Assembly (NCBI RefSeq): GCF_903645315.1 | Contig: NZ_CAHJXL010000001.1 | Span: 124,001-188,000, forward strand | DNA from: Victivallis sp. Marseille-Q1083 | Lineage (GTDB): Bacteria; Verrucomicrobiota; Lentisphaeria; Victivallales; Victivallaceae | Length of the DNA: 64,000 nt | Reading direction: 5' to 3' | Shown: one piece after another, positions 50,363 to 64,000 of the stretch | Numbering within the stretch: position 1 is the first letter of the stretch | Layout of the letters: every line of letters begins with the position of its first letter | The notes under the pieces: model-generated | Databases searched by the model: none | Seen by the model: the letters and a program-made list of their open reading frames with translations, nothing else | What the model was told of the DNA's origin: nothing | Program-made: the position numbers and the translations under genes

Positions 50363-50400
50363 TATAAATCACTATTGCAAGTTTAAGCGAGGGAATGATC

Positions 50401-51840
50401 ATGTTGCTTTTCCTGTTCGGAATCATCTTGTTGATCGCCGGTTATTTTACTTACGGAAAATTCATCGAGCGGATTCTGGCTCCCGACCACCGGGACACCC
50501 CGGCCAAAATCCATCACGACGGCGTCGATTTCGTCGTGCTGCCGCACTGGAAAAATATGCTGATTCAACTGCTGAACATCGCCGGAATCGGACCGGTCAT
50601 CGGCGTCATCCTCGGCATCAAATTCGGCGCGATCACCTTTTTGATCATTCCCGTCGGCAACGTCATCGGCGGCGCGGTGCACGATTTTCTCTCCGGCATG
50701 ATGTCGCTGCGGCACGACGGCGCCAATTTGCCGAAGCTGATCCGGATGACGCTCGGTGAAATTTATTACCATTTTTTCTCGATTTTCGTCATCATTCTGC
50801 TGCTGCTGGTGGTGGCGGTATTCATCAACATTCCGGCTCAATTGATCGACGGGCTGAATCCGACGATCCATATTTTCTGGCTGGCGGTCGGCGCAATTTT
50901 CCTGTATTACATCATCGCGACGCTGTTCCCGGTCGATAAAATCATCGGTTCGGTTTATCCATTTTTCGGCGCCTTGCTGCTGATTGGTACGCTGATGATT
51001 TTTGCCGTCCTGCTCGGGGAAGGCTTTCAACGGCCGGAGCTGCTGACCGAATCGGCGTCCTTCAAAGCGGGAATGATCAAGGAACCGATCATCCCGGTGC
51101 TGTTCGTCACCATCGCCTGCGGCATCATTTCCGGTTTTCACGCCACCCAGTCGCCGATCATCGCCCGGACGATGGAATCGGAATACCAGGGGCGTTCCTC
51201 CTTTTACGGCATGATGATCGTCGAAGGCGTCATCGCGATGATCTGGGCGGCCGCCGGCATGGCGATTTACAACCTTTTCCCGTCCATGATGCAGAACAAT
51301 CCGACCTCGGTTCTGCTGAAAATCACCGACTATTTCCTGGGCTCCCAAATGGGAACCGTCACCGTGATCGGAGTCATCGTCCTGGCGATTACTTCCGGCG
51401 ATACGGCGATGCGCAGCATGCGGCTCAGCCTGGCGGAAATGTGCGGCATCAGCCAGAAATCGTTCAGCAAACGCCTGATGATCTGCCTGCCGCTGATCGC
51501 CATCGTCTGCGGACTGCTGGCCTGGTCGAACATCAGCGCCAAAACGTTCGGCCAGTTGTGGAACTACTTCGCCTGGGGCAACCAGGTGCTGGCGGCCTCC
51601 ACGCTGATGGCAGCGACGGTCTGGCTGGTCATGCAGCGCAAGGCCGGCTGGGTGGCGGTCATCCCCGGCATGTTCATGACCTTCATCGTCGTCAGCTATA
51701 TCCTGTGGGTATCGCCGAAACACGGCGGACCGGTCGGCGTCGGACTGCCGCTGCAGATCGCCTACGCGATCGCCGGAGTCGTCTCGCTCGCTTTCGCCGT
51801 CTGGGCATACCGGCGCGGCCGCGGCAAACGATTGCAGTAA
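50401..51840 (+). CDS. cstA: carbon starvation protein CstA family (peptide/pyruvate carrier)
   Basis: 479 residues from the ATG at 50401 (MLLFLFGIILLIAGYFTYGKFIE), which has a GAGGGA site 6 nt upstream; the ATG at 50395 is too close to that site. More than ten membrane helices. The conserved CstA N-terminal block is visible: GIGPVIGVILGIKFG, then GAVHDFLSGMMSLRHDG, and FHATQSPIIARTMESE in the middle. It is shorter than E. coli CstA (about 700 residues), as many related proteins are. Members take up pyruvate or peptides during nutrient limitation. It is divergent from ydbH and converges with the amidohydrolase gene, 9 bp away. Confidence 0.9.
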   Translation: MLLFLFGIILLIAGYFTYGKFIERILAPDHRDTPAKIHHDGVDFVVLPHWKNMLIQLLNIAGIGPVIGVILGIKFGAITFLIIPVGNVIGGAVHDFLSGMMSLRHDGANLPKLIRMTLGEIYYHFFSIFVIILLLLVVAVFINIPAQLIDGLNPTIHIFWLAVGAIFLYYIIATLFPVDKIIGSVYPFFGALLLIGTLMIFAVLLGEGFQRPELLTESASFKAGMIKEPIIPVLFVTIACGIISGFHATQSPIIARTMESEYQGRSSFYGMMIVEGVIAMIWAAAGMAIYNLFPSMMQNNPTSVLLKITDYFLGSQMGTVTVIGVIVLAITSGDTAMRSMRLSLAEMCGISQKSFSKRLMICLPLIAIVCGLLAWSNISAKTFGQLWNYFAWGNQVLAASTLMAATVWLVMQRKAGWVAVIPGMFMTFIVVSYILWVSPKHGGPVGVGLPLQIAYAIAGVVSLAFAVWAYRRGRGKRLQ

Positions 51841-51849
51841 CCGCGGGCG

Positions 51850-52731
51850 TCACTCCTCCGGCAAAGCGTCCAGTTTCCGGTAGATGCGCCTGGCATTGCG
51901 GTAAAAGACCGACTCGTGATGCCGGGCCGGAATCACCCGCCGCAGCAGTTCTACATAGTTGTAAAGGTTGACCAGCGGCCAATCGGAGCCGTACATGACC
52001 TTTTCATAATCGGACAGATAAGCCAGCCAGCAGCGAAGCTGATCGAGATAAGCGCGATAGGTTTCGCAGAACGATTCGATGTCAAAATGGCCGGTCGCCA
52101 GCCCGGACAAATCGGCGAAAACATTCGGATTCTTGGCCAGAACTTCAGTGGCATCCACCAGCCAGGGATTGCCGTAATGGGCCATGACGAAGGTGGTCTG
52201 CGGAAATTTGACCGCCACGGCGTCGACCTGCAACGGGTGGGAATATTTCACCAGCGCCCGGCTGCTGGCGGTATCGCCGGTATGGAAGACGACCGGCACA
52301 TCGTAAACCGCCGCCAACTCATAGAACGAATAATAGAGTTCGTCATCCGGATAGAAATAATTGTAACCCGGATACAGCTTGATGCCGACACAGGCCGGAC
52401 AGCGCAGATGGCGTTCGAAATCGGCGAGCGAAGCGGTGACATTCCGCGGCGTCAGCGTGGCGCTATCCACCCCGCAGCAGTAAGCGACAAACGACGGCTG
52501 GTTGTAATCGACGACATCCACCGGGCCGGCCAGGTCCGGTCCCAACGCATGGCTGATACCGTCGTCCGGCGTCTTGCCCCCCGACCCCATGACCACAGTG
52601 CGGACGATCTGCAGCTCCCGCAGCACCCGGCTCAGGTGGGGAACGGTATTTTCATGGCCGGCAGCGGCGGCGGTTTCATTGAAATGGTGAGAGGTGGAGA
52701 AGTGGATATGCGCATCGATTATTTTCATCAT
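51850..52731 (-). CDS. amidohydrolase family protein (amidohydrolase 2)
   Basis: 293 residues; GGAGG lies 5 nt before the ATG. A metal-dependent TIM-barrel hydrolase: the HxH pair at His8 and His10 (DAHIHF), a middle histidine in VVFHTGDTA, another in VMAHYGNPW, and the Asp in MYGSDWPLVN. The GIKLYPGYNYFYP and YRNARRIYRKL segments fit the amidohydrolase-2 group, whose members include decarboxylases and lactonases. No signal peptide. The substrate is unknown. It has its own promoter just upstream and is divergent from the deoC operon, so it may share its regulation. Confidence 0.85.
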   Translation of the reverse strand: MMKIIDAHIHFSTSHHFNETAAAAGHENTVPHLSRVLRELQIVRTVVMGSGGKTPDDGISHALGPDLAGPVDVVDYNQPSFVAYCCGVDSATLTPRNVTASLADFERHLRCPACVGIKLYPGYNYFYPDDELYYSFYELAAVYDVPVVFHTGDTASSRALVKYSHPLQVDAVAVKFPQTTFVMAHYGNPWLVDATEVLAKNPNVFADLSGLATGHFDIESFCETYRAYLDQLRCWLAYLSDYEKVMYGSDWPLVNLYNYVELLRRVIPARHHESVFYRNARRIYRKLDALPEE

Positions 52732-52785: not shown

Positions 52786-53024
52786 ATAGACGCCCGGCCC
52801 AAAAGGCCGCAGGGGAAAAATTGTTTCCGCCGAAACGGAAAACAAGGCAGGAGGGCAAAAAAAACTGTAATACCGCCTCTGGCAAATGGGGCATTACCGT
52901 CCCGCGCTCCCGATCGCGAAAATTCCGGGGGGATCGAAAATCGGAAAAAACACCGCAACCGGGATTGCTTTTTAAACATTATAATGTTATAATGTATCAA
53001 ATCAACAATTCGAAGGTGGAAACG
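52786..53024. other. divergent control region of the deoC operon
   Basis: About 240 bp upstream of deoC. It holds the amidohydrolase leader edge, the deoC promoter and a perfect palindrome overlapping the promoter. An open frame starting at 52821 merely extends deoC through this region and is not supported: it lacks a ribosome site and family similarity. Confidence 0.55.
52965..52993 (+). promoter_or_regulatory. promoter of the deoC/glycyl-radical operon with overlapping operator
   Basis: TTGCTT (52965-52970), a 17-bp spacer, TATAAT (52988-52993). A perfect 14-bp palindrome, AACATTATAATGTT (52975-52988), fills the end of the spacer, and a second ATAATGT half-site follows at 52989-52995. The palindrome abuts the -10, as expected for a repressor site; the GntR protein encoded at the end of the operon is the natural candidate. 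Confidence 0.6.
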
Positions 53025-53699
53025 ATGGATTTACCGAATTTGCCGAAACTGATCGATCTGAGCTGTGTGAAAACCGACATCGTCATGGAAGATCTGCGCG
53101 CAATGGTGGCCCTGGCGAAAAAACACCGCTTCATCTGCTGTTTCGCCATGCCTTGCTACACCGCCTGGCTGATCGAGCAATTGAAGGACGATCAGGACAT
53201 CCAAGTCGGCGGAGCGGTCGGCTTTCCGTCCGGCGCCGACCTGACTGAAGCGAAAGTGCTGACGGCGGAACGTTTCGTCGCCGCCGGCTGCGGAGAACTG
53301 GACATGGTAATCAACGTCGGCGCACTGAAAAACCGGGATTATGCGATGGTGAGCCGCGACCTTGAGCAGGTGAAGGCGGCGGCCGGCGAACGCACCTTGA
53401 AGGTTATCCTCGAAGTGGCCTGCCTGACCGATGACGAAATCCGCAAAGGCAGTGAACTGGCCGTCCGGGCCGGCGCCGCCTACGTCAAAACCGGGACCGG
53501 CTGGGCCAAACAGCCGACCACGGTCGAACACATCGAACTGATCCGCGATACGATCGGCGACGACGCCAAAATCAAAGCCGCCGGCGGCATCCGGACGCTC
53601 CGGGATATCGAACGGATGGTCGCGGCCGGCTGTTCCCGTTTCGGAATCGGCATCAAATCGGCCAGAAATATTTTAAAGGAAGCTGGCCTGGAAGCATGA
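53025..53699 (+). CDS. deoC: deoxyribose-phosphate aldolase-family protein DeoC
   Basis: 224 residues from the ATG at 53025, with AAGGTGG 5 nt upstream. Class I aldolase residues are intact: Asp93 (ELDMVINVGALK), the Schiff-base Lys155 (AAYVKTGTGWA) and Lys184 (IKAAGGIRT). The start IDLSCVKTDIVMEDL and VGFPSGADLTEAKV fit the DeoC family. The normal reaction cleaves 2-deoxyribose-5-phosphate to glyceraldehyde-3-phosphate and acetaldehyde. The C-terminus (RFGIGIKSARNIL) departs from the usual RIGTSSG-type phosphate loop, so a different but related substrate is possible. First gene of the operon; its stop overlaps the kinase start by 4 bp. Confidence 0.93.
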   Translation: MDLPNLPKLIDLSCVKTDIVMEDLRAMVALAKKHRFICCFAMPCYTAWLIEQLKDDQDIQVGGAVGFPSGADLTEAKVLTAERFVAAGCGELDMVINVGALKNRDYAMVSRDLEQVKAAAGERTLKVILEVACLTDDEIRKGSELAVRAGAAYVKTGTGWAKQPTTVEHIELIRDTIGDDAKIKAAGGIRTLRDIERMVAAGCSRFGIGIKSARNILKEAGLEA

Positions 53700-55207
53700 A
53701 AAAAGCATTGACTTTCGATCTGGGCACCGGCAGTTTGAAGGCTTCGCTGTTCGATGAAAACGCCAACAATCTGGGTGAAACGGTGGTCGCCTATCCGACG
53801 TTCTGCAGCGCCGACGGCATTCGCCGGGAACAGAATCCGGAGACGTGGTGGCATGGGGTGCGCCAGGCAGTGCAAACGCTGTTGAAGGGACGGAACGACC
53901 TGGCGGAAATCGCCGGGATCGGCGTTTCGGGACACAGCCTCGGCGTCGTCGCGGTCGACGCCGACGGCAATCTGCTGAGCGACCGGACGCCGATCTGGTC
54001 GGATGCCAGGGCGACGGCCGAGGCCGAAGCCTTTTTTCAAACGGTGAACCGCCGCGCCTGGTATTACGATACCGGCTGCGGCTTTCCGCCGGAACTTTAT
54101 TCAATCTTCAAAATCGCCTGGTACCGCCGGCACCGGCCGGAATTATACGCCCGAACCCGTTACTTCCTCGGGACCAAGGATTACATCAACTTCAAACTGA
54201 CCGGCCGCATCGCCACCGATTTCTCCTACGCCTCCGGCAGCGGCCTGTACAGCCTGACTGACCGGCAATATGTGGAACGCTACAGCCTGGCGGCCGGCAT
54301 CGATCCGGCCAAACTGCCGGAACTGCGGCCTGCCGCCGCAAAGCTCGCCGACCTGAAACCGGAACTGGCGGCAGCCTGGGGACTGCCCGCCGCCGCCATC
54401 GTGGTTACCGGCGGCGTCGACAACGCCTGCATGGCGCTGGGAGCCGGTTGCTTCGAACCGAACGACGCCTATCTCTCGCTTGGCTCGTCAGCCTGGGTGG
54501 CCGCCTGCGCGGAACAGCCGACGCTGGATTACGACCGGCGGATCTATACCTTCCAGCACTGCGTCGACGGGATGTATCTGCCGGCCTCCGGCATCTTTTC
54601 GGCCGGCACTTCGCTGGAGTGGGCACTCGACAATTTGTTTTCGGAACTGCGCGCTCAGGACAGTCCGCTGGCGGCATTCGACCGGCTGGGCGCCCGCGCG
54701 CCGCCCCGCGCCCACGGCGTGCTTTTCTGCCCGGTGCTGGCCGGCGGTTCCGGTTCCGATGTCGCCACCGACCTGAAAGGCGGTTTCGCCAATCTTTCGC
54801 TGGGCATCGGCCGAGCGGAGCTGGCCCGCGCCGTGCTGGAGGGCATCGCCTGCGATTTGGAATTGTCGTTGCAGTTCCTGCAATCCAAGCTTCCGCTTTC
54901 CGCTCAATTGCCGGCGGTCGGCGGCGGCGCCAAAAGCGATTTATGGCTTGACATCTATGCCAATGTACTGGAAAAAGACATCCTGCGCTCCCGGATTTCC
55001 CGGGATGCGGTTTCACTCGGCGCCGCCGCGCTGGTCTTCCGGGCCGGCGGTCTCTGGCAAACCTATGACAAAATCAAAGCACTGCACCGTCAAACCGCGC
55101 CGATCCGCTGTCAATTGCCAAAGGCGACGGCCTATCGGGCGGTCAAGCAAAAATTTCACCAATTCTGCCGCCAGTTGGCGGCGCTGAATCGGCAAGGAGA
55201 GGAATGA
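53696..55207 (+). CDS. FGGY-family carbohydrate kinase
   Basis: 503 residues, starting within the deoC stop (ATGA). The actin-like kinase fold has the N-terminal phosphate-1 loop FDLGTGSLKASLFD, ISGH-type strand GIGVSGHSLG, PIWSDARA, the LGTKDYINFKLTG segment common to xylulokinase-like enzymes, and the catalytic-base motif TGGVDNACMALGAG with Asp242. The C-terminal ATP-site glycine motif is AVGGGAKSDLW. It phosphorylates a sugar or sugar alcohol with ATP. The specificity cannot be read; the neighbouring DeoC suggests a product cleavable by a deoxysugar-phosphate aldolase. It overlaps the next gene by 4 bp. Confidence 0.92.
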   Translation: MKKALTFDLGTGSLKASLFDENANNLGETVVAYPTFCSADGIRREQNPETWWHGVRQAVQTLLKGRNDLAEIAGIGVSGHSLGVVAVDADGNLLSDRTPIWSDARATAEAEAFFQTVNRRAWYYDTGCGFPPELYSIFKIAWYRRHRPELYARTRYFLGTKDYINFKLTGRIATDFSYASGSGLYSLTDRQYVERYSLAAGIDPAKLPELRPAAAKLADLKPELAAAWGLPAAAIVVTGGVDNACMALGAGCFEPNDAYLSLGSSAWVAACAEQPTLDYDRRIYTFQHCVDGMYLPASGIFSAGTSLEWALDNLFSELRAQDSPLAAFDRLGARAPPRAHGVLFCPVLAGGSGSDVATDLKGGFANLSLGIGRAELARAVLEGIACDLELSLQFLQSKLPLSAQLPAVGGGAKSDLWLDIYANVLEKDILRSRISRDAVSLGAAALVFRAGGLWQTYDKIKALHRQTAPIRCQLPKATAYRAVKQKFHQFCRQLAALNRQGEE

Positions 55208-56388
55208 TGGAGAATTTCGAATATTACAATCCGGTCAAAGTCGTTTTCGGCGCCGGAACTGTCCGGCAAATCGGTCAACATGCGGCGCTGTACGGAAAAA
55301 AAGCGCTGATCGCCACCTATCAAGATTGTTCTTTCTTTGCCGAAATCCTGGAAACGATCCATCGCGACCTCGCCGCAAACGGTGTAGCGTCGATCGATTA
55401 CCCGAACATCACCGCCAATCCGCTGCTGTCCCAGGCGGAACAAGGGGTGGCCGTCTGCCGGGCCGATAAGATCGACGTCATCATCGCGCTGGGCGGCGGC
55501 AGCGTCATGGATTGTGCGAAAATCATCGCCGCCGGCGTCAAATACCCGCATCCGCTGGAAAAAATGATCATGTTTTCCCACAGTTGCCCGAAGACGATCC
55601 CGCCCCGGCAGGCGTTGCCGACGGTGATGGTCCCGACCTTGCCGGGCACCGGCAGCGAGATGAATCCGACGGCGGTGATCACCGATGAGGCCACCGGCCG
55701 GAAATCCTACGTGTGGGAACCGTCCTGCCTCTATGCCAAAACGGCGTTGCTCGATCCCGATTTGACCGTCTCGCTGCCGCCGTACCAGACCGCCTGCGGC
55801 GCGTTCGACATCGTCGCCCACGTGCTGGAAGCCTATCTGAACGGCGATCCGGCCGTCAACCTTGAGCTGCAGGAGCGGATGCAGGAAGGCGTCGTCAAGG
55901 CGGTCCTGGCCGTCCTGCCGCAGGTATGGAGCAATCCCGGCGATGTCCAGGCCCGCGGCGTGATGATGTGGGCCGCCAGCATCGCGCTGAACGGCTGGCT
56001 GACCTCCGGCACTTTCACCTTCACGCCGATGCACCAGATGGGTCATGTCCTGAGCGCCCGTTACCATGCCGCGCACGGCGCGACGCTGGCTTGCATGATG
56101 CCGGCCTGGTTCCGTTATTTCGCCGGCCGGCCGGACAACGGCAAATATATCCAGATGGCCGAACGCCTGTTCGGCGCCTCCCTGCCGGAAGCGGCGGATC
56201 GGCTGGAAAAACGGATGCGGCAATACGGCATCCAAACCAGACTCTCCCAATTCGGCGTTCAGCCGGCGGAACTCGATGCTCTCACCGACATCGTCGTCGA
56301 AGTCAGTTTCGGACCGGATCATCGGTTGTCCGGTCACCCGCCAATGACCCGGCAGGACATCCGGGCCATCTATGAGCTGGCCCTGTAA
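55204..56388 (+). CDS. iron-containing alcohol dehydrogenase (YqhD-like group III)
   Basis: 394 residues. A Rossmann-like N-terminal domain has the GGGSVMDCAK nucleotide motif (residues 97-106). The metal ligands are in the canonical spacing: Asp202 and His206 (GAFDIVAHVLE), His277 (TPMHQMGH) and His291 (ARYHAAHG). TLPGTGSEMNPTAVI is the family signature. The close spacing resembles YqhD-type broad-specificity aldehyde reductases. In this operon it most likely reduces an aldehyde (for example acetaldehyde, propanal or lactaldehyde) with NAD(P)H. Its start overlaps the kinase stop; the glycyl radical enzyme starts 20 bp downstream. Confidence 0.95.
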   Translation: MMENFEYYNPVKVVFGAGTVRQIGQHAALYGKKALIATYQDCSFFAEILETIHRDLAANGVASIDYPNITANPLLSQAEQGVAVCRADKIDVIIALGGGSVMDCAKIIAAGVKYPHPLEKMIMFSHSCPKTIPPRQALPTVMVPTLPGTGSEMNPTAVITDEATGRKSYVWEPSCLYAKTALLDPDLTVSLPPYQTACGAFDIVAHVLEAYLNGDPAVNLELQERMQEGVVKAVLAVLPQVWSNPGDVQARGVMMWAASIALNGWLTSGTFTFTPMHQMGHVLSARYHAAHGATLACMMPAWFRYFAGRPDNGKYIQMAERLFGASLPEAADRLEKRMRQYGIQTRLSQFGVQPAELDALTDIVVEVSFGPDHRLSGHPPMTRQDIRAIYELAL

Positions 56389-56408
56389 AAACGAAGGAAT
56401 CGACCATC

Positions 56409-58439
56409 ATGCCCGAACCGTCATTTCAACAAATCCTGGACGGCACCTTGCAGGCCATCCGCGCACTGCCGACCATCGTTCCGGCGGCCGGCCGCCTTGC
56501 CGGCTTTCGCAATTTCCAATCGCCGGCAGCCCAACTGCTGAACCGTTACGACAACTTCCATTACTCCATGGGCGATGCTTTCTACCGTTACGGCGTCAGC
56601 GGCATCGCCGCCAAAGCCGCCGGCAATGTTTCACCGGACAAACCGGCCGCCGCCAATGAACTGCTGCGCGGCATCGCCTCGACCTATCGGGAGGTGGCCG
56701 CTTATTTTTCCCGCTATGGCCGGGCGGCAGCGGAAGCGGCGCACCGGGCGCCGGCGGCCGAACAAAGCCGTCTGCAGGCGATCGCCGACAATTTGAACTG
56801 CCTGGCCGCCCGACCGCCGCAATCGTTCGAACAGGCGCTCCAGCTCTTCTATCTGATGTGGAGCATCCGCGGCATGAACCGCTGCAGCTGCATCGGCCGG
56901 CTGGATGTCCGGCTGAAGCCCTTTTACGAGCAGGACAAGCAAGCCGGCCGGATTGATGCCGAAACCGCCTTTGCCCTAATCTGCGAGCTATGGGAGCACC
57001 TGAACGGCTGGGGCAGCGGCGACACGCTGATGAACGTTATGGTCGGCGGCAGCAATCCGGACGGCAGCGACGCATCGAGCGACCTGTCGAAACTGATGCT
57101 GGAAGCCTCGATCGCCGTCGGCAAAACCGAACCGCACCTCAACGTCCGCTGCCACCGGCAAATCCGGCCGGATGTCCTGGAGGCCGCCTGCCGGCTGCAG
57201 TATCTCGGTCACGGGCAGGCGACCATGTACAACGACGACGCCATCCTGCCGGCGATGCGCCGGGCCGGCATTCCGGAGGCCATCGCCGCCGACTACGCCA
57301 ACGACGGCTGCACCGAAATTATCTGGGACGGCCACGGCCGGATCGATTTCAATCACATCGACGCGGTGGCGGCGCTGGAACTGACGTTGTACAATGGCCG
57401 GCCCGCCCCCAACCCCCGCCGGGAAGAGGTCAAGTATTTCCACGCCGCCAATCCGAAAGGCCCGTATACCCCGGAAGTGGTCACCGGTTTTGCCAGCGGC
57501 GATGCCGGGCAATTCACCACTTATGAGGAGTTTTATCAGGCATTTCTCCGGCAATACCGGTTCCAGCTCCACTGCAAACTGGAAGAGTTGCGGGAATACG
57601 ACCGGCAGCGCCGGGCCGGCCAGTGGCACGGCCTGCCGTTTTTGAACGGCACCTATGAAGCCGTATTGACCAGCGGCGTCGATCTGCTGGACGACGGATT
57701 GCCGATGAACAGTTATATGGTGTTCACCGGATCGCTGCCGACCGTGGCGGACGGCCTGGCGGCGCTGAAACGGGTCGTCTATGAACAAAAACATTACACC
57801 ATCGCCCAACTCAAAGCCGCCCTGGAAGCCGATTTCGACGGCGCCGAAACCATGCGCCGGGAGCTGCTGGCGGCGCCGAAATTCGGCAATGACCTCGATG
57901 AAGTCGACTGCATCGCCGCCGGGCTGGTAAAGACGATTTGCGACGATTTCGATTCCTACCGACGCGATACCGGCTTTACCGTGTTTCCGGCGTTGATCGG
58001 CTGGCGTTTCGTCGAAGAGGCTTACGGAATCGGCGCCACGCCGGACGGCCGCAAATACAAAGAACCGATCGCCGAACATTACTGCGCCACTCCCGGACGG
58101 CTTCAAAAAGGCGTCACCGCCCTGATCAACTCGATCGCCAAGGCGCCGCTGGCGCGGGCGATCGGCGTGGCGGCCACCCATATTTCACTGCCGCGCAACT
58201 TCGCCGCCGGTCCGGAGGAAGGAGTCGCATTGCTGAAGTCGCTCAATGAGAGCTGCTTCCGGAAAGGGCTGACGCAATTCAACATCGCCATCTACGACAC
58301 CGAACAACTCCGAGACGCCCAGCGCCATCCGGAGCGCCACCGGGACCTGATCGTCCGCGTCTGGGGCTTCAGCGCCAAATTCGTCGAACTCAGCGAAGAG
58401 ATGCAGCAACATATCATCCAGCGCGTGATGCCGCGCTAA
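56409..58439 (+). CDS. short glycyl radical enzyme (pyruvate formate-lyase/diol dehydratase superfamily)
   Basis: 676 residues, well below the 780-850 usual for the family. The PFL-type core is recognisable: CIGRLDVRLKPFYEQD, GGSNPDGSDASSDLSKLM, GHGQATMYNDDAILPAM. The thiyl-radical site is Cys301 with Glu303 in NDGCTEIIWDG. The GCxE pattern matches dehydratase/lyase subtypes (GCVE) and not the CC of pyruvate formate-lyase. The C-terminal glycyl-radical loop VRVWGFSAKF places the radical Gly653 24 residues from the end. The extra N-terminal region of the classical enzymes is missing. It must be oxygen-sensitive and needs a radical-SAM activase, which is not in the window. Probable role: dehydration of a polyol or sugar in the same operon as deoC, kinase and aldehyde reductase. 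Confidence 0.9.
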   Translation: MPEPSFQQILDGTLQAIRALPTIVPAAGRLAGFRNFQSPAAQLLNRYDNFHYSMGDAFYRYGVSGIAAKAAGNVSPDKPAAANELLRGIASTYREVAAYFSRYGRAAAEAAHRAPAAEQSRLQAIADNLNCLAARPPQSFEQALQLFYLMWSIRGMNRCSCIGRLDVRLKPFYEQDKQAGRIDAETAFALICELWEHLNGWGSGDTLMNVMVGGSNPDGSDASSDLSKLMLEASIAVGKTEPHLNVRCHRQIRPDVLEAACRLQYLGHGQATMYNDDAILPAMRRAGIPEAIAADYANDGCTEIIWDGHGRIDFNHIDAVAALELTLYNGRPAPNPRREEVKYFHAANPKGPYTPEVVTGFASGDAGQFTTYEEFYQAFLRQYRFQLHCKLEELREYDRQRRAGQWHGLPFLNGTYEAVLTSGVDLLDDGLPMNSYMVFTGSLPTVADGLAALKRVVYEQKHYTIAQLKAALEADFDGAETMRRELLAAPKFGNDLDEVDCIAAGLVKTICDDFDSYRRDTGFTVFPALIGWRFVEEAYGIGATPDGRKYKEPIAEHYCATPGRLQKGVTALINSIAKAPLARAIGVAATHISLPRNFAAGPEEGVALLKSLNESCFRKGLTQFNIAIYDTEQLRDAQRHPERHRDLIVRVWGFSAKFVELSEEMQQHIIQRVMPR

Positions 58440-58462
58440 AGTCACCAAAAGGAATCGAACGA

Positions 58463-59173
58463 ATGTCAACCAATTATTTGTTTGTCTACAATACATTGAA
58501 AGAAAAAATCACCAACGGCGATTACCCGATCCAGTCGCTGCTGCCCGCCGAACCGGTGCTGGAAAAGATGTTCCATGTCAGCCGGATCACCATCCGCAAG
58601 GCGGTGGAGTTGCTCGCCGCCGACGGCCTGGTCCAGAAGCAGCGGGGCGTCGGTACGATCGTCTTAAATTACAAGGTCACCCAGAATCTCAATTATATCA
58701 CGTCGCTGACCGAAACTTTGACGAAAAACGGCTATGAAGTGACCATCCCGGCCATGTCGATCGCCGTCGTCAAGGCCGACGCCGCTCTCGCCGGCATCTT
58801 CAATGCCAAAGCCGGAACCGAACTGGCCAGGATCCGCCGCACGGTACTGGCCTCCGGCACGCCGCTCGGGCTGCTGGAAAACTACCTGCCATACGAACTG
58901 GTCGCGGGAATCGAACAATATGAAAACCGCTTCGTTTCGCTGTACCGGCTGCTGGAAGAGAAGTATTATATCACCCTCGAAATGGCCCAGGACCGCATTT
59001 TCGCCAAAAACGCCGACGCCGCCGAAGCGGCCCGGCTCGATATTCCGGAAGGCTTCGCGCTGGTCTGCGTCAAACGGAAATGTCTGCGCTATGGCCAATG
59101 CGTCTGCTACGATCTGCTGTCGCTGCGCCACGACATGTACGGCTTCGACATTACCCTCTACGGCCGGAGATGA
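58463..59173 (+). CDS. GntR/HutC-family transcriptional regulator
   Basis: 236 residues; AAAGGAATCG lies before the ATG. The N-terminal winged helix has YPIQSLLPAEPVLEKMFHVSRITIRKAVELL and the DGLVQKQRGVGTIV wing. The C-terminal UTRA-type effector domain starts near residue 85 (YITSLTETLTKNGYEV) and ends in CYDLLSLRHDMYGFDI, placing it in the HutC subfamily, which binds small metabolites, often sugar phosphates. Last gene of the operon, 23 bp after the radical enzyme. It is the candidate ligand of the palindrome at 52975-52988, giving negative autoregulation. Confidence 0.92.
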   Translation: MSTNYLFVYNTLKEKITNGDYPIQSLLPAEPVLEKMFHVSRITIRKAVELLAADGLVQKQRGVGTIVLNYKVTQNLNYITSLTETLTKNGYEVTIPAMSIAVVKADAALAGIFNAKAGTELARIRRTVLASGTPLGLLENYLPYELVAGIEQYENRFVSLYRLLEEKYYITLEMAQDRIFAKNADAAEAARLDIPEGFALVCVKRKCLRYGQCVCYDLLSLRHDMYGFDITLYGRR

Positions 59174-59205: not shown

Positions 59206-62200
59206 TCAGTTGTCCTCCAGCCCGGCAAACAAACTCTTGAGTTTTTCCAGTGAAACCGGTTTGAGCAATATCGCATCGAATTCCGACATATCGAAGTTAT
59301 TCTTCGCTTCAGTATCGGCGGTCACCGCCACCAGCTTCATTTTCCGCCAGGCCGATTCCCGGCGGATCCGCCGCGCCAGTTCGCCGCCGTCCATGCCCGG
59401 CATCCAGAGATCGGTGAGCAGCACATCCGCCACTTCCTGCCGCAACAGCTCCAACGCCTCCTTGCCGGAAACCGCCGAACGCACTTCCATCTTCAATTTC
59501 TTCAGCATCGCCGCCAATACCTTCAAGTTCATCGACACGTCGTCAACAACCAGAACCCGGCGGAACGTTGTACTACGCTCCGGTTCCGGCTCCGATTCCG
59601 GCGAAACCGGCCCCTGAACGTCGATCGCCACCCGGTCGAGACGCAACGAAAAATCACTGCCGCAATTGATCCGGCTTTCCAGCAGGATGACGCCGCCCAT
59701 TTTGCCCGCCAGCCGCTGGGAGATCGCCAGGCCCAGCCCGGTCCCTTCGTAAATACGGCTGTCCCGGGTCGACTCCTGCTGTACAAACGGCTGGAAGATT
59801 TTTTCCTGATATTCCCGGCTGACCCCGATGCCGGTATCCCGCACATGGATCAACAGAGTTCCCCAATCGGCGGCCCGGCGCTGAAATTCGACGACGATAT
59901 CGACGCTGCCGGCTTCGGTAAATTTGACCGCATTGCCGACCAGATTCAACAAAATCTGCCGCAAGCGCAAACTGTCCAGCTCCAGCAGCGGCAAATCCGC
60001 CGGACACTGCAGCGAAAACCGCAGTCCTTTCTGTTCGGTCCGGTGCCGGAAAATCGCATAAATTTCCTGCAGCAGTACCGCCAGGTCAGTCGGCTGCGGC
60101 ACAAGTTCAAGCTGGTCCGCTTCGATCTTCGACAAATCCAGCACGCCGTTGATCAGTTTCAGCAAAGCGCGGCCAGCCAAGTTGATCGACCGCAAATAAT
60201 CCTCCTGCTCCTGCCGCGGGATATCGCCCTCCTGCAGCAATTCACTGAAGCCGATCACCGCGTTCAGCGGCGTTCGCAATTCATGGCTCATCGTCGCCAG
60301 AAAATAACTCTTCGCCCGGTCGGCGTTGCGCGCATCCTGCAGCGCATCGGTCAGTTGACGCTGCACCTCGTTGAAATCGGTGACATCCACCAGCGTATTG
60401 AGCACATTGATCAGCTTGCCGTCCAGAAAGATCGGATAAGCCGACGACAGATAATCGCGTTCCTTGATCCGCAATTTCCGGACATGTTCCCGGTAATCCT
60501 GCAGCGACAGATGGACCGGGCAATTCGACAGATTGTCGTCACCGCAGAGGTAACCGAAACACGGCCGGGCGTAAACCTCCGCTTCCGGCAGGCCGGCAAT
60601 CTTCAATGCGGCGTTGTTGACCCGCTGCAGCCGCATCTCCGGATCGAAAAGCAAAATCGGAATCTTGATCGTATCCAGGATCAGCCGTTTCTCGTATTCG
60701 CTGCGCTCCAGTTTATCGCGATTGCGCTTGCGTTCCAGCACGATTTCGACGATATGGGCCGCCGCCCGGAACAACTGCGCATCCTGGTCGGAAAATTGGT
60801 GTCCCTGCCGTTCATAAGTCAAGCCCAGATGCCCCCAGAGCTTGCCGCCGCGACGGATGCCGACGCAGAATAACGAATAAATCTTTTCCTGCTGAAAATG
60901 ATCCGCCCAACTGCCGGTCTGGCTGATGGACTCCCCCTGCCGCAGATCCGGCACGATGAACAATTCGCCGCGCTGCATGCAGCGGAACCAGTCCTCGTCC
61001 TCCCGGATCGCCGGCCGCGGCAAATAATCGATCATCGACGGGATGCCCGGCTTATGCCATTCGACCACCGGAATCACCCGGTTCTGATCGTAATCGTACT
61101 GAAAGAGGTAGCAACGGTCGGCCGCCATCCGCGCCCCGACCGTGTCGAGCAGGTGCTGCAGGGCGCTGCTGTTGTCGTCATTGAGCACCACCGCCTCCAG
61201 ACTGGTATTCAACAGCCGCTCCTGCTCGGCATAGACTTTCAAATTCTCCATCAGCGTCTGCCGTTCCGCCTCCAAACGCTTTTCTTCGGTGACATCCAGA
61301 CTCAGCACCAGCAGCAATGCCCCGCCGTCCGGTCGCTCCACTTTGGTCAGCAGCGTATGCAGGTCGCAGACTCTGCCGTTCGGAAATTCGTAATGGTCGG
61401 CCACTTTCACGCTGCCGGAACGGCAGACTTCCAAATCATTGCGCCGGAATTGTTCGGCCTTATCCCGATAGCAAACCAGCTCATCCGCCCGCCGACCCAG
61501 CACTTCGGAGGCCGGAATGCCGGACAACTGCTCCGCCGCCCGGTTCCAGATGATGTAGCGGAAATCATTCTGGACATCCTTGGCGGCAATCATCGCCGGC
61601 AGATTGTCCATGATCGCCTGCAAAATGCTGTTGGTCGCCTTCAATTCCGCTTCGGCGGTAATTTCTCTCGACAGATCGATCGCCATGCCCAGCAGCAGAC
61701 GGTCTCCGTTGGCCTTGATCAGCAATTTCTTGACGACCTTGCCGATGCGTTTCACACCCTGCGTATCGACAAAGGTCTCCATCGCATCCAGCACCTTGCC
61801 GCTCCGGACCAACTCCAAATCCTCGGACCGGTACAGCTCGGCCCGTTTCCGGTCCGGCACAATCTCAAAGTCGGTTTTCCCCAGAATCTCCGCCAGCGGC
61901 CGCTGGAAAAGCTGCTCCTGCAGACGGTTGCAGATGACATACCGGAAACCGTTTTCCACTTCCTTGGCGAAAATATAGCACGGCAGGTTGTCCATCACCT
62001 CCTGCAGCAGCATGGCCGCATCAAGACGCTGCAATTCCGCTTCCCTGGCGGCGGTGATGTCCCGGATGATGCCGAAATATTTCACCCGCCCCTGCCCGGC
62101 GATTTCCACCGGCTTCACCATCATTTCGAAAAAGCGGCAATCCTTTCCCGTCTTGACCCGATAGGCAATCTCCAGTGATCGATCTTCCCCCTGCAGCAAC

Positions 62201-64000
62201 CGATGCCAGGCCGCCAGAAAATTCTGCCGGTCTTCCGGCGCCACCCATTCCTCGACCGTCATCCGCCGACCGTCACGCCATCCCCAATACTCCGGCTGCG
62301 GTTCGGCTTCCACCACGCAACCGTCGTCATATTGAAAATAAGTCATCTGCGCCACTTCGGCGGCCGCCTGCAGCATTTTATTCTGCAGCATAATCCGGTT
62401 ATGCTTCTCATATTCCTCACCGATATCGCGGAAAACCAGCACCGCCCCGGCAATCCGTTCCGCCGCCTCCCTGATCAGCGCCACGTTCTCGGCGATATGC
62501 CGCCGCGAACCGTCACGGGCCACCAGATCGGTCTGTCTCGGCCGGGCGGCGCCTTCCCCGTCCTGCAGAACCAGGCGCACCAGCGAAGGCACCGAAGCGC
62601 CATCGGTCGGATCAACGGTGCGAAAACAATCCGCCAATTTCCGGCCGAGCAATTTTTCCGACGGCAGGCCGGTCAGTTCGGCCGCCACCGGATTCGCCAG
62701 CGTGATCACTTCCTGCTCGTCGGTCGCGATCACCCCATCGCCGATCGACTCCAGCGTCAACCGGAAACGCTCCGCCAATGCCGCCATATTCACCTGCGCC
62801 GCATGCAAATCCTCGACATCGGTCGAAACCCACAAAGCGGTTTCAACGCCAAAAATATCCCTCGACAGCTTCAACAATTTAGCCTGCCGCCGCCGGCCCC
62901 GGCAATCGTATTCGATCGTCAACGGCTGTCCGGAGGCGAGCACCTGCCGGACCGGCTCCTGAAACGTATTGCGGATATCCGCCGGAAATTCCTGCAGCGT
63001 CCACGTCTCTGCGGCAAAATCGGGCGCCGCTTCATCGGTCACCTGCAGAAAATGAATCCGCCCTCTGGCATCCGCCGCCGCCACTCTGACCGGCAACGCC
63101 CTGAAAATCACCTGCAAACGGCGGGAATGCCGCTGCCGGCTGATGAGATGAAAGATGAAAACCAGCAAGGCGGCGATCAAAGCCGCCAAGCCGGAAGCGA
63201 TTTCCAGTTTATAACGCGACCAGAAAGAGCGCGGCGGGTGCAGGAGCAAGGTATCCGCCGGCAGCATTTCCGGCGTCAGATGATAACGCGCCAACAAATC
63301 GTAGTCGAAAACTGGCCGGCTCGCGCCGGTCGCCACCGGAATCCGCTCCGCCGCCTCCCCGTTCAACACCCGTTCCGCCAGCCGTGCGGCCTCGTAACCG
63401 TGCGCACCTCCCTCCACCATGACGCCGCCCGGAATCCCAGCCTCAAAGCCGCTGTCCTGGGTCATCAGGACCGACTTTGTCCGATTCTGAGCCATCTGTT
63501 CAAAAACCGAGCGAAGCAACTCCCGTCCCTCCGGCCGGCTCGAACGCCAGTTGTTGAAAACGACGAAAGAGTCGTCCGGCAGACCGGCAAGCTTCCGGAG
63601 CAGGTCCGCCGTCGTATCGTCGCGACCGTTGATCAATGTTATTTCCACCTCGGGCAACCGGACGGCGGCCAGTTGGTCCGCAGTGCTGCTGCCGTCGGTG
63701 ATCAACACGATATTGCGGGTCCGCGGCCAGAGCTGCAATCCCAGTTCGATGTTGCGCAGATTGACTTCCGGCATCGCCAGGCCGGTGACATTGCCCAGCG
63801 GCGGCCGGGCGGCGGCGCGAAAGCCGTGATAACCGCAGAAAACCAGCGGCAAATCAGCCGGCAAGGTCAACACCCGGTCGAAGAAAAGATCGGCCGCAGG
63901 GTTGCCGGCCGCCACAACCAGGTCGTAAGCGGCGCCGGACAACTGGCCGCGCAGCCTCCCGACCTCGCGGGCCGACGGCTCCAGACCGGGGGCATTCAAC
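59206..64000 (-). CDS. hybrid sensor histidine kinase, N-terminus outside window
   Basis: 1597 residues are visible. The frame is open to the window edge and its apparent first Met is only an internal TTG codon. Alignment by eye with the kinase at 39302 suggests about 85-90 N-terminal residues (signal peptide and first strands) are missing. The periplasmic substrate-binding-like domain (AYDLVVAAGNPAADLF, GGVMVEGGAHGYEAARLAERVLNGEA), one membrane helix, several PAS domains, a GAF (about 990-1150) and the Cys-motif PAS (PCFGYLCGDDNLSNCP) precede HisKA with visible-residue His1239. HATPase (DTGIGVSR, GTGLGLAIS) and a receiver (LTDLWMPGMDG) follow. It converges with the GntR regulator of the glycyl-radical operon and might sense that pathway's substrate. 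Confidence 0.9.
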   Translation of the reverse strand, partial: LNAPGLEPSAREVGRLRGQLSGAAYDLVVAAGNPAADLFFDRVLTLPADLPLVFCGYHGFRAAARPPLGNVTGLAMPEVNLRNIELGLQLWPRTRNIVLITDGSSTADQLAAVRLPEVEITLINGRDDTTADLLRKLAGLPDDSFVVFNNWRSSRPEGRELLRSVFEQMAQNRTKSVLMTQDSGFEAGIPGGVMVEGGAHGYEAARLAERVLNGEAAERIPVATGASRPVFDYDLLARYHLTPEMLPADTLLLHPPRSFWSRYKLEIASGLAALIAALLVFIFHLISRQRHSRRLQVIFRALPVRVAAADARGRIHFLQVTDEAAPDFAAETWTLQEFPADIRNTFQEPVRQVLASGQPLTIEYDCRGRRRQAKLLKLSRDIFGVETALWVSTDVEDLHAAQVNMAALAERFRLTLESIGDGVIATDEQEVITLANPVAAELTGLPSEKLLGRKLADCFRTVDPTDGASVPSLVRLVLQDGEGAARPRQTDLVARDGSRRHIAENVALIREAAERIAGAVLVFRDIGEEYEKHNRIMLQNKMLQAAAEVAQMTYFQYDDGCVVEAEPQPEYWGWRDGRRMTVEEWVAPEDRQNFLAAWHRLLQGEDRSLEIAYRVKTGKDCRFFEMMVKPVEIAGQGRVKYFGIIRDITAAREAELQRLDAAMLLQEVMDNLPCYIFAKEVENGFRYVICNRLQEQLFQRPLAEILGKTDFEIVPDRKRAELYRSEDLELVRSGKVLDAMETFVDTQGVKRIGKVVKKLLIKANGDRLLLGMAIDLSREITAEAELKATNSILQAIMDNLPAMIAAKDVQNDFRYIIWNRAAEQLSGIPASEVLGRRADELVCYRDKAEQFRRNDLEVCRSGSVKVADHYEFPNGRVCDLHTLLTKVERPDGGALLLVLSLDVTEEKRLEAERQTLMENLKVYAEQERLLNTSLEAVVLNDDNSSALQHLLDTVGARMAADRCYLFQYDYDQNRVIPVVEWHKPGIPSMIDYLPRPAIREDEDWFRCMQRGELFIVPDLRQGESISQTGSWADHFQQEKIYSLFCVGIRRGGKLWGHLGLTYERQGHQFSDQDAQLFRAAAHIVEIVLERKRNRDKLERSEYEKRLILDTIKIPILLFDPEMRLQRVNNAALKIAGLPEAEVYARPCFGYLCGDDNLSNCPVHLSLQDYREHVRKLRIKERDYLSSAYPIFLDGKLINVLNTLVDVTDFNEVQRQLTDALQDARNADRAKSYFLATMSHELRTPLNAVIGFSELLQEGDIPRQEQEDYLRSINLAGRALLKLINGVLDLSKIEADQLELVPQPTDLAVLLQEIYAIFRHRTEQKGLRFSLQCPADLPLLELDSLRLRQILLNLVGNAVKFTEAGSVDIVVEFQRRAADWGTLLIHVRDTGIGVSREYQEKIFQPFVQQESTRDSRIYEGTGLGLAISQRLAGKMGGVILLESRINCGSDFSLRLDRVAIDVQGPVSPESEPEPERSTTFRRVLVVDDVSMNLKVLAAMLKKLKMEVRSAVSGKEALELLRQEVADVLLTDLWMPGMDGGELARRIRRESAWRKMKLVAVTADTEAKNNFDMSEFDAILLKPVSLEKLKSLFAGLEDN

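Follow-up and report, generated by a model that had tools for sequence, protein, structure and literature searches.

The window analysed here, a 64,000-nucleotide stretch of Victivallis sp. Marseille-Q1083 (contig NZ_CAHJXL010000001.1, positions 124,001 to 188,000), contains one tight, real operon in which a glycyl radical enzyme (GRE) stands beside the genes of a kinase, an aldolase and a reductase. Its five genes, all on the + strand, are deoC (53025-53699), which encodes a class I aldolase that belongs to the DeoC family and, within it, to a kinase-linked clade; a carbohydrate kinase gene (53696-55207; Pfam FGGY_N and FGGY_C) of a subfamily without a name; a gene for an iron-containing alcohol dehydrogenase (Fe-ADH, Pfam; 55204-56388), which resembles YqhD and the butanol dehydrogenases and is probably an aldehyde reductase; the gene of the 676-residue GRE (56409-58439; PFL-like and Gly_radical domains), which is of the CXE eliminase type and of an orphan lineage; and a GntR/HutC-type gene (58463-59173; GntR and UTRA) whose product, with its UTRA ligand domain, is probably the local regulator. 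This gene content suggests a radical-fed fermentation of a polyol or similar sugar compound. We consider it possible, at a little short of an even chance, that the operon is a kinase–aldolase–reductase fermentation module plus an added glycyl radical eliminase that supplies the kinase from a polyol-like compound. The part of interest is narrower than a first-pass annotation of this DNA had proposed: it is an orphan GRE attached, in one genome, to a conserved, uncharacterised kinase–aldolase–reductase module.

The spacing of the five genes is exactly as that annotation gave it, with 4-bp overlaps between deoC and the kinase gene and between the kinase and Fe-ADH genes, and gaps of 20 bp before the GRE gene and 23 bp before the GntR/UTRA gene. 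The annotation also placed them behind one promoter; the tight operon holds, whereas the promoter is at most putative, as a sigma-70 scan found no + strand sigma-70-like pair upstream of deoC. In 6.7 kb the scan gave 3 sites vs. 2.0 in shuffles, one of the 3, at 53005-52978, facing the opposite direction. A perfect 14-bp palindrome without strand, AACATTATAATGTT (52975-52988), is a candidate operator for the GntR/UTRA regulator. It contains TATAAT and forms the core of an imperfect 15-nt inverted repeat (52970-53001), and when the 293-base region was shuffled 2000 times, a palindrome as long as this arose in 59 cases. The pattern has this sole site in the genome at up to one mismatch, although a control pattern has only 2 per strand, so that rarity says little. 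The longest mechanical open reading frame (ORF) of deoC begins at TTG 52821; a ribosome-site-like GAAGGTGG precedes the ATG at 53025 that we use as the start, and the stop codon lies at 53697-53699. The G+C content at third codon positions (GC3) is 0.73-0.78 in the five operon genes and 0.72-0.80 in four neighbouring ORFs, and thus shows no mark of recent import. Among the five proteins, DeoC alone passes a specific NCBIfam cut-off; the best model for the regulator is PhnF, with 111.5 bits against a cut-off of 156.8.

The kinase was used to follow the module through other genomes. Matches at E<=1e-60 occur in 3 of 197 genomes of the class (the window genome, G060 and G083), and matches at E<=1e-85 in 10 of 387 genomes of the phylum, the window genome included. 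Thirteen loci of the kinase subfamily were compared, counting that of the window; DeoC lies beside the kinase in 11, and the full triad of kinase, DeoC and Fe-ADH is present in 6. The proposal that these three enzymes belong together is thereby borne out, and a kinase–aldolase–reductase fermentation is a sound reading. One of the five other triads, in G237 (locus L113), keeps the gene order of the window, with identities of 59% for DeoC, 47% for the kinase and 55% for Fe-ADH; the order is ADH–DeoC–kinase in G349 (L115), G412 (L116) and G083 (L097), and in G060 (L096) the triad lies on a 3.3-kb contig with the ADH gene open at the contig edge. Five further records carry kinase and DeoC without a visible Fe-ADH (L114, L118, L119, L100 and L101), namely G225, G335, G368 and two rhizobial megaplasmids, Sinorhizobium meliloti Ak57 pSymB and Shinella oryzae; the G225 and G335 contigs stop right after the kinase. 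The remaining two genomes, G252 and G381, have the kinase without DeoC in the available stretch. For the high-GC loci L113 and L100, tblastn positions and GC3 were used, and for L100 also the record annotation.

No GRE was found by tblastn (E<=1e-3) in the available stretches of the 12 other kinase loci, four of which (the triad loci L113, L115, L116 and L097) have a flank of at least 4 kb on both sides, and the five-gene set was found in no other genome searched. The first-pass annotation had staked its reading on the conservation of all five genes; the triad is conserved, whereas its association with the GRE is not. The triad thus occurs independently of any GRE like that of the window, which looks like an addition to it in this genome. 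Some GRE is encoded elsewhere in 8 of the 10 other phylum genomes with a locus of this kinase subfamily, and in six of them it scores 675-727 bits on PF02901, far above the 268 bits of the window GRE. Because kinase and DeoC occur together elsewhere without the GRE, the product of the kinase should be the substrate of the aldolase, and the two enzymes probably share an intermediate. This coupling leaves three places for the GRE: before the kinase, after the reductase or outside the pathway.

The aldolase itself belongs to a distinct clade. The window DeoC scores 188 bits on TIGR00126 (cut-off 117); in the alignment, however, IDLS, KTGTGW and RFGIG replace the classical DH[TA], KT[SC]TGF and R[LI]G[TV]. 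The pattern [IM]D[LIV]S, KTGTGW and RFGI[GN] is common to all 11 kinase-linked DeoCs, of which none has the classical motifs, whereas 6 of 7 other DeoCs of the class do. These 7 are the remaining loci of the DeoC search of the class, with 3 further matches without a locus left out. In a tree of the 18 sequences, the 11 kinase-linked DeoCs fall on one side of a branch with support of 99/97, two of the 7 others being long branches. The positions of the catalytic Lys, Lys and Asp, whose roles we assume from E. coli deoxyribose-phosphate aldolase, are kept in the alignment. The kinase-linked members tested score 174-206 bits on the model and two classical ones 229 and 273, all above the cut-off of 117. 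Since the classical motifs are replaced across the whole kinase-linked clade, cleavage of 2-deoxyribose 5-phosphate is not to be assumed, and the label "deoxyribose-phosphate aldolase", while right as a family, is unsafe as an activity; the first-pass annotation had built its main route on that activity. The window DeoC is, however, the only DeoC match in its genome at E<=1e-30, so that it may also have a housekeeping role in deoxyribose metabolism. The seventh of the other DeoCs (L094, in G074) is divergent and has neither motif set; it lies beside a different FGGY kinase, 24% identical to that of the window, and is perhaps part of another kinase–aldolase pairing.

The best NCBIfam model for the window kinase is that of XylB/xylulokinase (TIGR01312), with 300 bits under a cut-off of 380, and it is far below the cut-offs for FucK and RhaB. 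SGHSL is present in all 13 members of the subfamily, and the aligned motif is SGHSL[GA] overall, with SGHSLG in the window kinase; the same position reads AGQMHG in E. coli XylB (2itm) and SGQAHG in a xylulokinase on the Sinorhizobium plasmid that also carries a member of the subfamily. The alignment suggests that the SGHSL[GA] kinases have a substrate site of their own. The Fe-ADH is best matched by PRK15138 (YqhD), at 185 bits under a cut-off of 645, and NADH-dependent butanol dehydrogenases and YqhD are among the closest solved chains. It keeps GGGSxMD, PMHQMGH and HGATL. The column after its second strand holds Asp in 4 of 5 sequences and Glu-Asn in the fifth (L097), an Asp that we take, giving it little weight, to bear on a preference for NADH.

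Two of the kinase loci have surroundings of interest. In S. meliloti pSymB (L100, 3542-13527), kinase and DeoC close a gene run with a sugar ABC transporter nearby, an unassigned pathway from which the substrate could become apparent; the run is annotated with a short-chain dehydrogenase/reductase (SDR), glycerol dehydrogenase, D-threitol dehydrogenase, glucose-6-phosphate isomerase, an aldolase of the 2-keto-3-deoxy-6-phosphogluconate type, shikimate dehydrogenase, phosphoglycerate dehydrogenase, an MBL-fold hydrolase and a SIS-domain protein. In G083 (L097, 3465-12169), the triad comes after the flagellar genes flgK, an FlgG-like gene and flgL, with a 163-residue ORF on the opposite strand between them, and is followed by a 381-residue protein without a Pfam or NCBIfam match.

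The radical motifs of the GRE are intact. It scores 267.7 bits on PFL-like (cut-off 24.3) and 57.9 bits on Gly_radical (cut-off 22.2), and reading the sequence directly gives GCTE, with Cys301 (57309-57311, +) and Glu303, and RVWGFSA, with Gly653 (58365-58367, +). The GCxE site of the first-pass annotation is thus confirmed. CXE is a conserved feature that marks GRE eliminases, according to the available text of two reports (PMC8473560, PMC7077986), and by this motif the window GRE is classed as an eliminase. None of 12 models of named NCBIfam GRE families (HpsG, HpfG, CutC, HypD, formate acetyltransferases and arylacetate decarboxylases) is passed, the best being PFL2-3 with 261 of 678 bits. 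Its nearest relative in the class is 36% identical over residues 75-673 (profile alignment, 197 genomes), or 33% by BLASTP and 30% over the whole alignment, and the best other relative in the 387 phylum genomes reaches 35%. An exact short-pattern search, hence an insensitive one, of the contigs of 84,980 species gave 5 relatives at 26-30%. Viral contigs had no match to any GRE pattern, and the identities were 27-36% among the matches listed for phage records (5 of 22) and 28-30% among those listed for plasmid records (25 of 135).

A tree was built from 61 GREs, the set of 67 non-redundant ORFs having been reduced by five rows shorter than 500 residues and one L056 row. The window GRE stands alone in it on a branch of length 2.28 that falls in no starred set, and long branches leave its place unsure. 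It does not cluster with the characterised enzymes in the tree, namely YbiW, PflD, CutC and a GRM3-type enzyme, the outcome on which the earlier reading had been made to depend. The possibility that it is a gene fragment was rejected, as its frame extends just 11 codons before the ATG (687 vs. 676 residues), the start lies 20 bp past the ADH stop, and GRE frames of 677-720 residues occur at L080, L081, L069, L058, L003, L006 and L007. A further GRE of the same genome (C1:636k) has NDGCxE and a gap in common with it, but was rejected as a sister paralogue because the two are 24% identical and not joined in the tree; this compact GRE (L046, 7098-11222, in G000), with NDGCWE, has AraC-type regulators on both sides (two neighbours scanned). 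The GREs of G349, G412 and G368, with 265-315 bits on PF02901 close to the 268 of the window GRE, were likewise rejected as orthologues: they are 27-28% identical to it, it comes only 41st, 41st and 50th when the 61 entries of their own lists are ranked, and their surroundings contain no triad gene. These three GREs (L133, L134 and L135) have a C-terminal R[GV]WGWSGYF, their first GCxx motifs (PGCGMD, VGCLDT) do not include a GCxE, and they are perhaps a further unassigned GRE group.

The predicted active site differs from that of the B12-independent glycerol dehydratase, whose residue numbers were confirmed by a count on the sequence of 1r8w. The window GRE is without the first 113-119 residues of that enzyme, judging by the offsets from His51 to His164 and from residue 83 to residue 202 of the chain. 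At the first-strand site, the alignment places His51 (56559-56561, +) opposite His164; this position is Asp216 in CutC and His160 in HypD in the available text of PMC8473560, the equivalence to His164 coming from the alignment here. The alignment also has 13 columns (net 12 residues), among them the site of Phe333 as reported in the accessible part of PMC7077986, that are empty in the window GRE, with a Trp adjoining. Further, His281, Ser282 and Asp447, pocket positions of glycerol dehydratase, become Arg, Cys and Asn. These pocket changes, together with the missing Phe333 stretch, make it unlikely that the GRE is a plain glycerol or 1,2-propanediol dehydratase, and such a pocket fits the expectation for another substrate.

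No activase gene adjoins the operon. The nine GRE matches of the window genome stand for 7 genes, as two of these are split. Only 2 activases, the canonical ones, pass the TIGR02494 cut-off there, and both adjoin other GREs. In ten relatives, hand-picked among GRE holders, 118 Gly_radical matches (E<=1e-5) stand against 38 activase matches (E<=1e-20), the ratio ranging from 24:4 in G017 to near parity in G129 (3:3) and G191 (7:6). Since GREs outnumber canonical activases in many genomes of this class, a GRE without an adjacent activase is not unusual, and activation of the window GRE in trans is plausible. A weak activase match (C1:121202, 47 bits), which lies 2.4 kb outside the left end of the window, was not counted as a GRE activase, as its sequence looks like that of an AmmeMemoRadiSam-type radical SAM protein.

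The closest precedent for a GRE and an aldolase in series comes from E. coli, whose GREs YbiW and PflD open 1,5-anhydro-hexitol 6-phosphates to give 1-deoxyfructose 6-phosphate, according to the available part of PMC12441222. The E. coli ybiW-ybiY genes adjoin the aldolase gene fsaA, and it is this adjacency together with the reaction that supplies the precedent. The pathway for 1,5-anhydroglucitol and anhydromannitol (YbiW, PflD, FsaA/FsaB and GldA) likewise combines a CXE GRE with a class I lysine aldolase, followed by a reductase of the Fe-ADH fold; its aldolase and reductase steps are said to have been described by Ma and colleagues in 2024. However, it uses phosphorylation by the phosphotransferase system and an aldolase of the fructose-6-phosphate aldolase type, in contrast to the FGGY kinase and DeoC-type aldolase of the window, and the window GRE shares 26% identity with YbiW and PflD and lies outside their clade, with an unsure place in the tree.

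The kinase–DeoC coupling, the pocket changes and this E. coli precedent lead us to prefer a GRE that works before the kinase and feeds it. One of the two canonical activases would activate the GRE in trans, and the GRE would act on an unphosphorylated polyol or anhydro-polyol, removing water or opening the ring to give a deoxy sugar or deoxyketose. The FGGY kinase would phosphorylate this product, and the DeoC-clade aldolase would cleave it by a retro-aldol reaction, one fragment being a triose phosphate and the other a short aldehyde or hydroxyketone. By reducing this second fragment, the Fe-ADH would re-oxidise the NADH gained from the triose phosphate, and the GntR/UTRA protein would sense the substrate or an intermediate and control the operon. 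The reactions, their order and the substrate are what we infer from the gene set, and conversion of a pentitol to a 2-deoxypentose and of an anhydro-polyol to a 1-deoxyketose are both possible. Somewhat less probable than the supply of the kinase as such is the more pointed proposal of a new fermentation in which the orphan GRE would make the deoxy sugar or deoxyketose directly, without an initial dehydrogenase, from a free sugar alcohol or anhydro-sugar alcohol. The new FGGY subfamily and DeoC clade would then yield triose phosphate and a second fragment, whose reduction to ethanol or a diol would keep the redox balance. Several points weigh against a GRE that feeds the kinase. The operon has no transporter, isomerase or activase gene that would point to a substrate; GRE and triad are seen together in one genome, so that the link may be accidental or local; and the GRE alignments are of 22-33% identity, weakest at the N-terminal end that holds His51. 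In addition, DeoC and kinase are preceded by genes of the SDR and IclR types in G335 (L118, 5481-7091) and G368 (L119, 11859-13536), with families scored for L118 only, and these loci also fit an ordinary ketose pathway started by a polyol dehydrogenase, with no deoxy sugar.

A special case of the favoured reading, and the one that the first-pass annotation put forward, has the GRE convert a pentitol to a 2-deoxypentose, the kinase form the 5-phosphate, DeoC release glyceraldehyde 3-phosphate and acetaldehyde, and the Fe-ADH make ethanol. This route is redox-balanced on paper, and the aldolase passes the DeoC model, is the sole such match in the genome and keeps its catalytic Lys, Lys and Asp, with roles that we take as given. 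However, the replacement of the classical motifs in the whole clade and its lower scores speak against it, as does the kinase: the deoxyribose kinase DeoK belongs to the PfkB family, and we know of no FGGY kinase that acts on a deoxyaldose. We regard this route as improbable, and a pentitol as the substrate is neither supported nor excluded. Equally doubtful is an order in which the kinase acts first, on a polyol, and the resulting polyol phosphate is dehydrated by the GRE to give the DeoC substrate. Some kinases of the FGGY fold, glycerol kinase for one, do act on polyols, and related models were matched; the accessible text of PMC12441222 has YbiW and PflD acting on phosphorylated anhydro-hexitols, but the 10 other records with kinase and DeoC and no GRE in the available stretch imply that the kinase product should feed DeoC directly.

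Placing the GRE last would account for its being optional. The aldolase would yield glycolaldehyde or lactaldehyde, the Fe-ADH would reduce this to ethylene glycol or 1,2-propanediol, and the GRE would dehydrate the diol to acetaldehyde or propanal, to be reduced again by the Fe-ADH. Fe-ADHs of the window type reduce aldehydes such as glycolaldehyde and lactaldehyde. For Pelobacter, the available text of PMC3543383 proposes both a GRE as 1,2-ethanediol dehydratase and a DeoC that yields glycolaldehyde from ribose. The genome has no microcompartment shell gene, and the Arg, Cys and Asn of the pocket and its empty columns argue against a small-diol dehydratase acting after the reductase, so that this order, which includes the 1,2-propanediol alternative of the first-pass annotation, is disfavoured and in our view hardly more probable than the two preceding ones. 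The absence of a shell counts for less, as GRE diol dehydratases need not have one. Finally, the GRE may merely share the operon or its regulator and serve another pathway. Its presence with the triad in a single genome and the richness of the class in GREs (24 Gly_radical matches in one genome) are consistent with such independent cargo, whereas the gaps of only 20 and 23 bp that set it between the ADH and GntR genes, and a GC3 like that of its neighbours, are not what it would lead one to expect; we think it unlikely, although somewhat less so than the other rivals.

Other known systems share parts of this operon. The B12-independent glycerol and 1,2-propanediol dehydratases are likewise PFL-like CXE enzymes with a His aligned at the first-strand site, but differ from the window GRE in the pocket positions and in one stretch; genes for shell proteins, a phosphate propanoyltransferase and an activase, as they occur in a GRM3-type locus, are absent from the window operon. 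The fuculose and rhamnulose pathways combine an FGGY kinase, an aldolase and an Fe-ADH reductase (FucO) as one unit, as the window operon does, but their aldolases (FucA/RhaD) are of class II, whereas that of the window is a DeoC-type class I enzyme. Deoxyribose utilisation (DeoK, DeoC) also pairs a sugar kinase with DeoC, although DeoK has the PfkB fold and the window DeoC lies in a separate clade. In sugar-phosphate utilisation (SPU) microcompartments, a DeoC-type aldolase supplies an aldehyde, according to the available text of PMC8217296; the window genome, by contrast, has no bacterial microcompartment shell protein (0 PF00936 matches, in a search that was positive in E. coli and Synechococcus), and its aldehyde would presumably be reduced, vs. 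oxidised to acyl-CoA in SPU. No pathway with this gene set is described in the accessible portions of the open-licence literature found, PMC11574389 included, which is no proof of absence.

The triad of coupled enzymes thus recurs in phylum genomes, with kinase and DeoC also on rhizobial megaplasmids, and is joined here by a GRE that may feed it. Identifying the substrate would give a name to the unassigned kinase subfamily, to a DeoC clade whose default annotation is deoxyribose-phosphate aldolase, and to one branch of a large set of GREs that likewise lack an assignment. If the GRE does act on free polyols, GRE dehydration would extend from small diols and glycerol to sugar alcohols.

The genes around the operon were not counted as members of it. 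Upstream, on the opposite strand, lies an amidohydrolase gene (51850-52731), and before it a CstA-family gene (50395-51840) of 481 residues, whereas the PRK15015 CstA model has 701 positions. Past the operon, an ORF of more than 1597 residues on the - strand (59206-63999) leaves the window; judged from its sequence, it is sensor-kinase-like with a receiver-like C-terminus.

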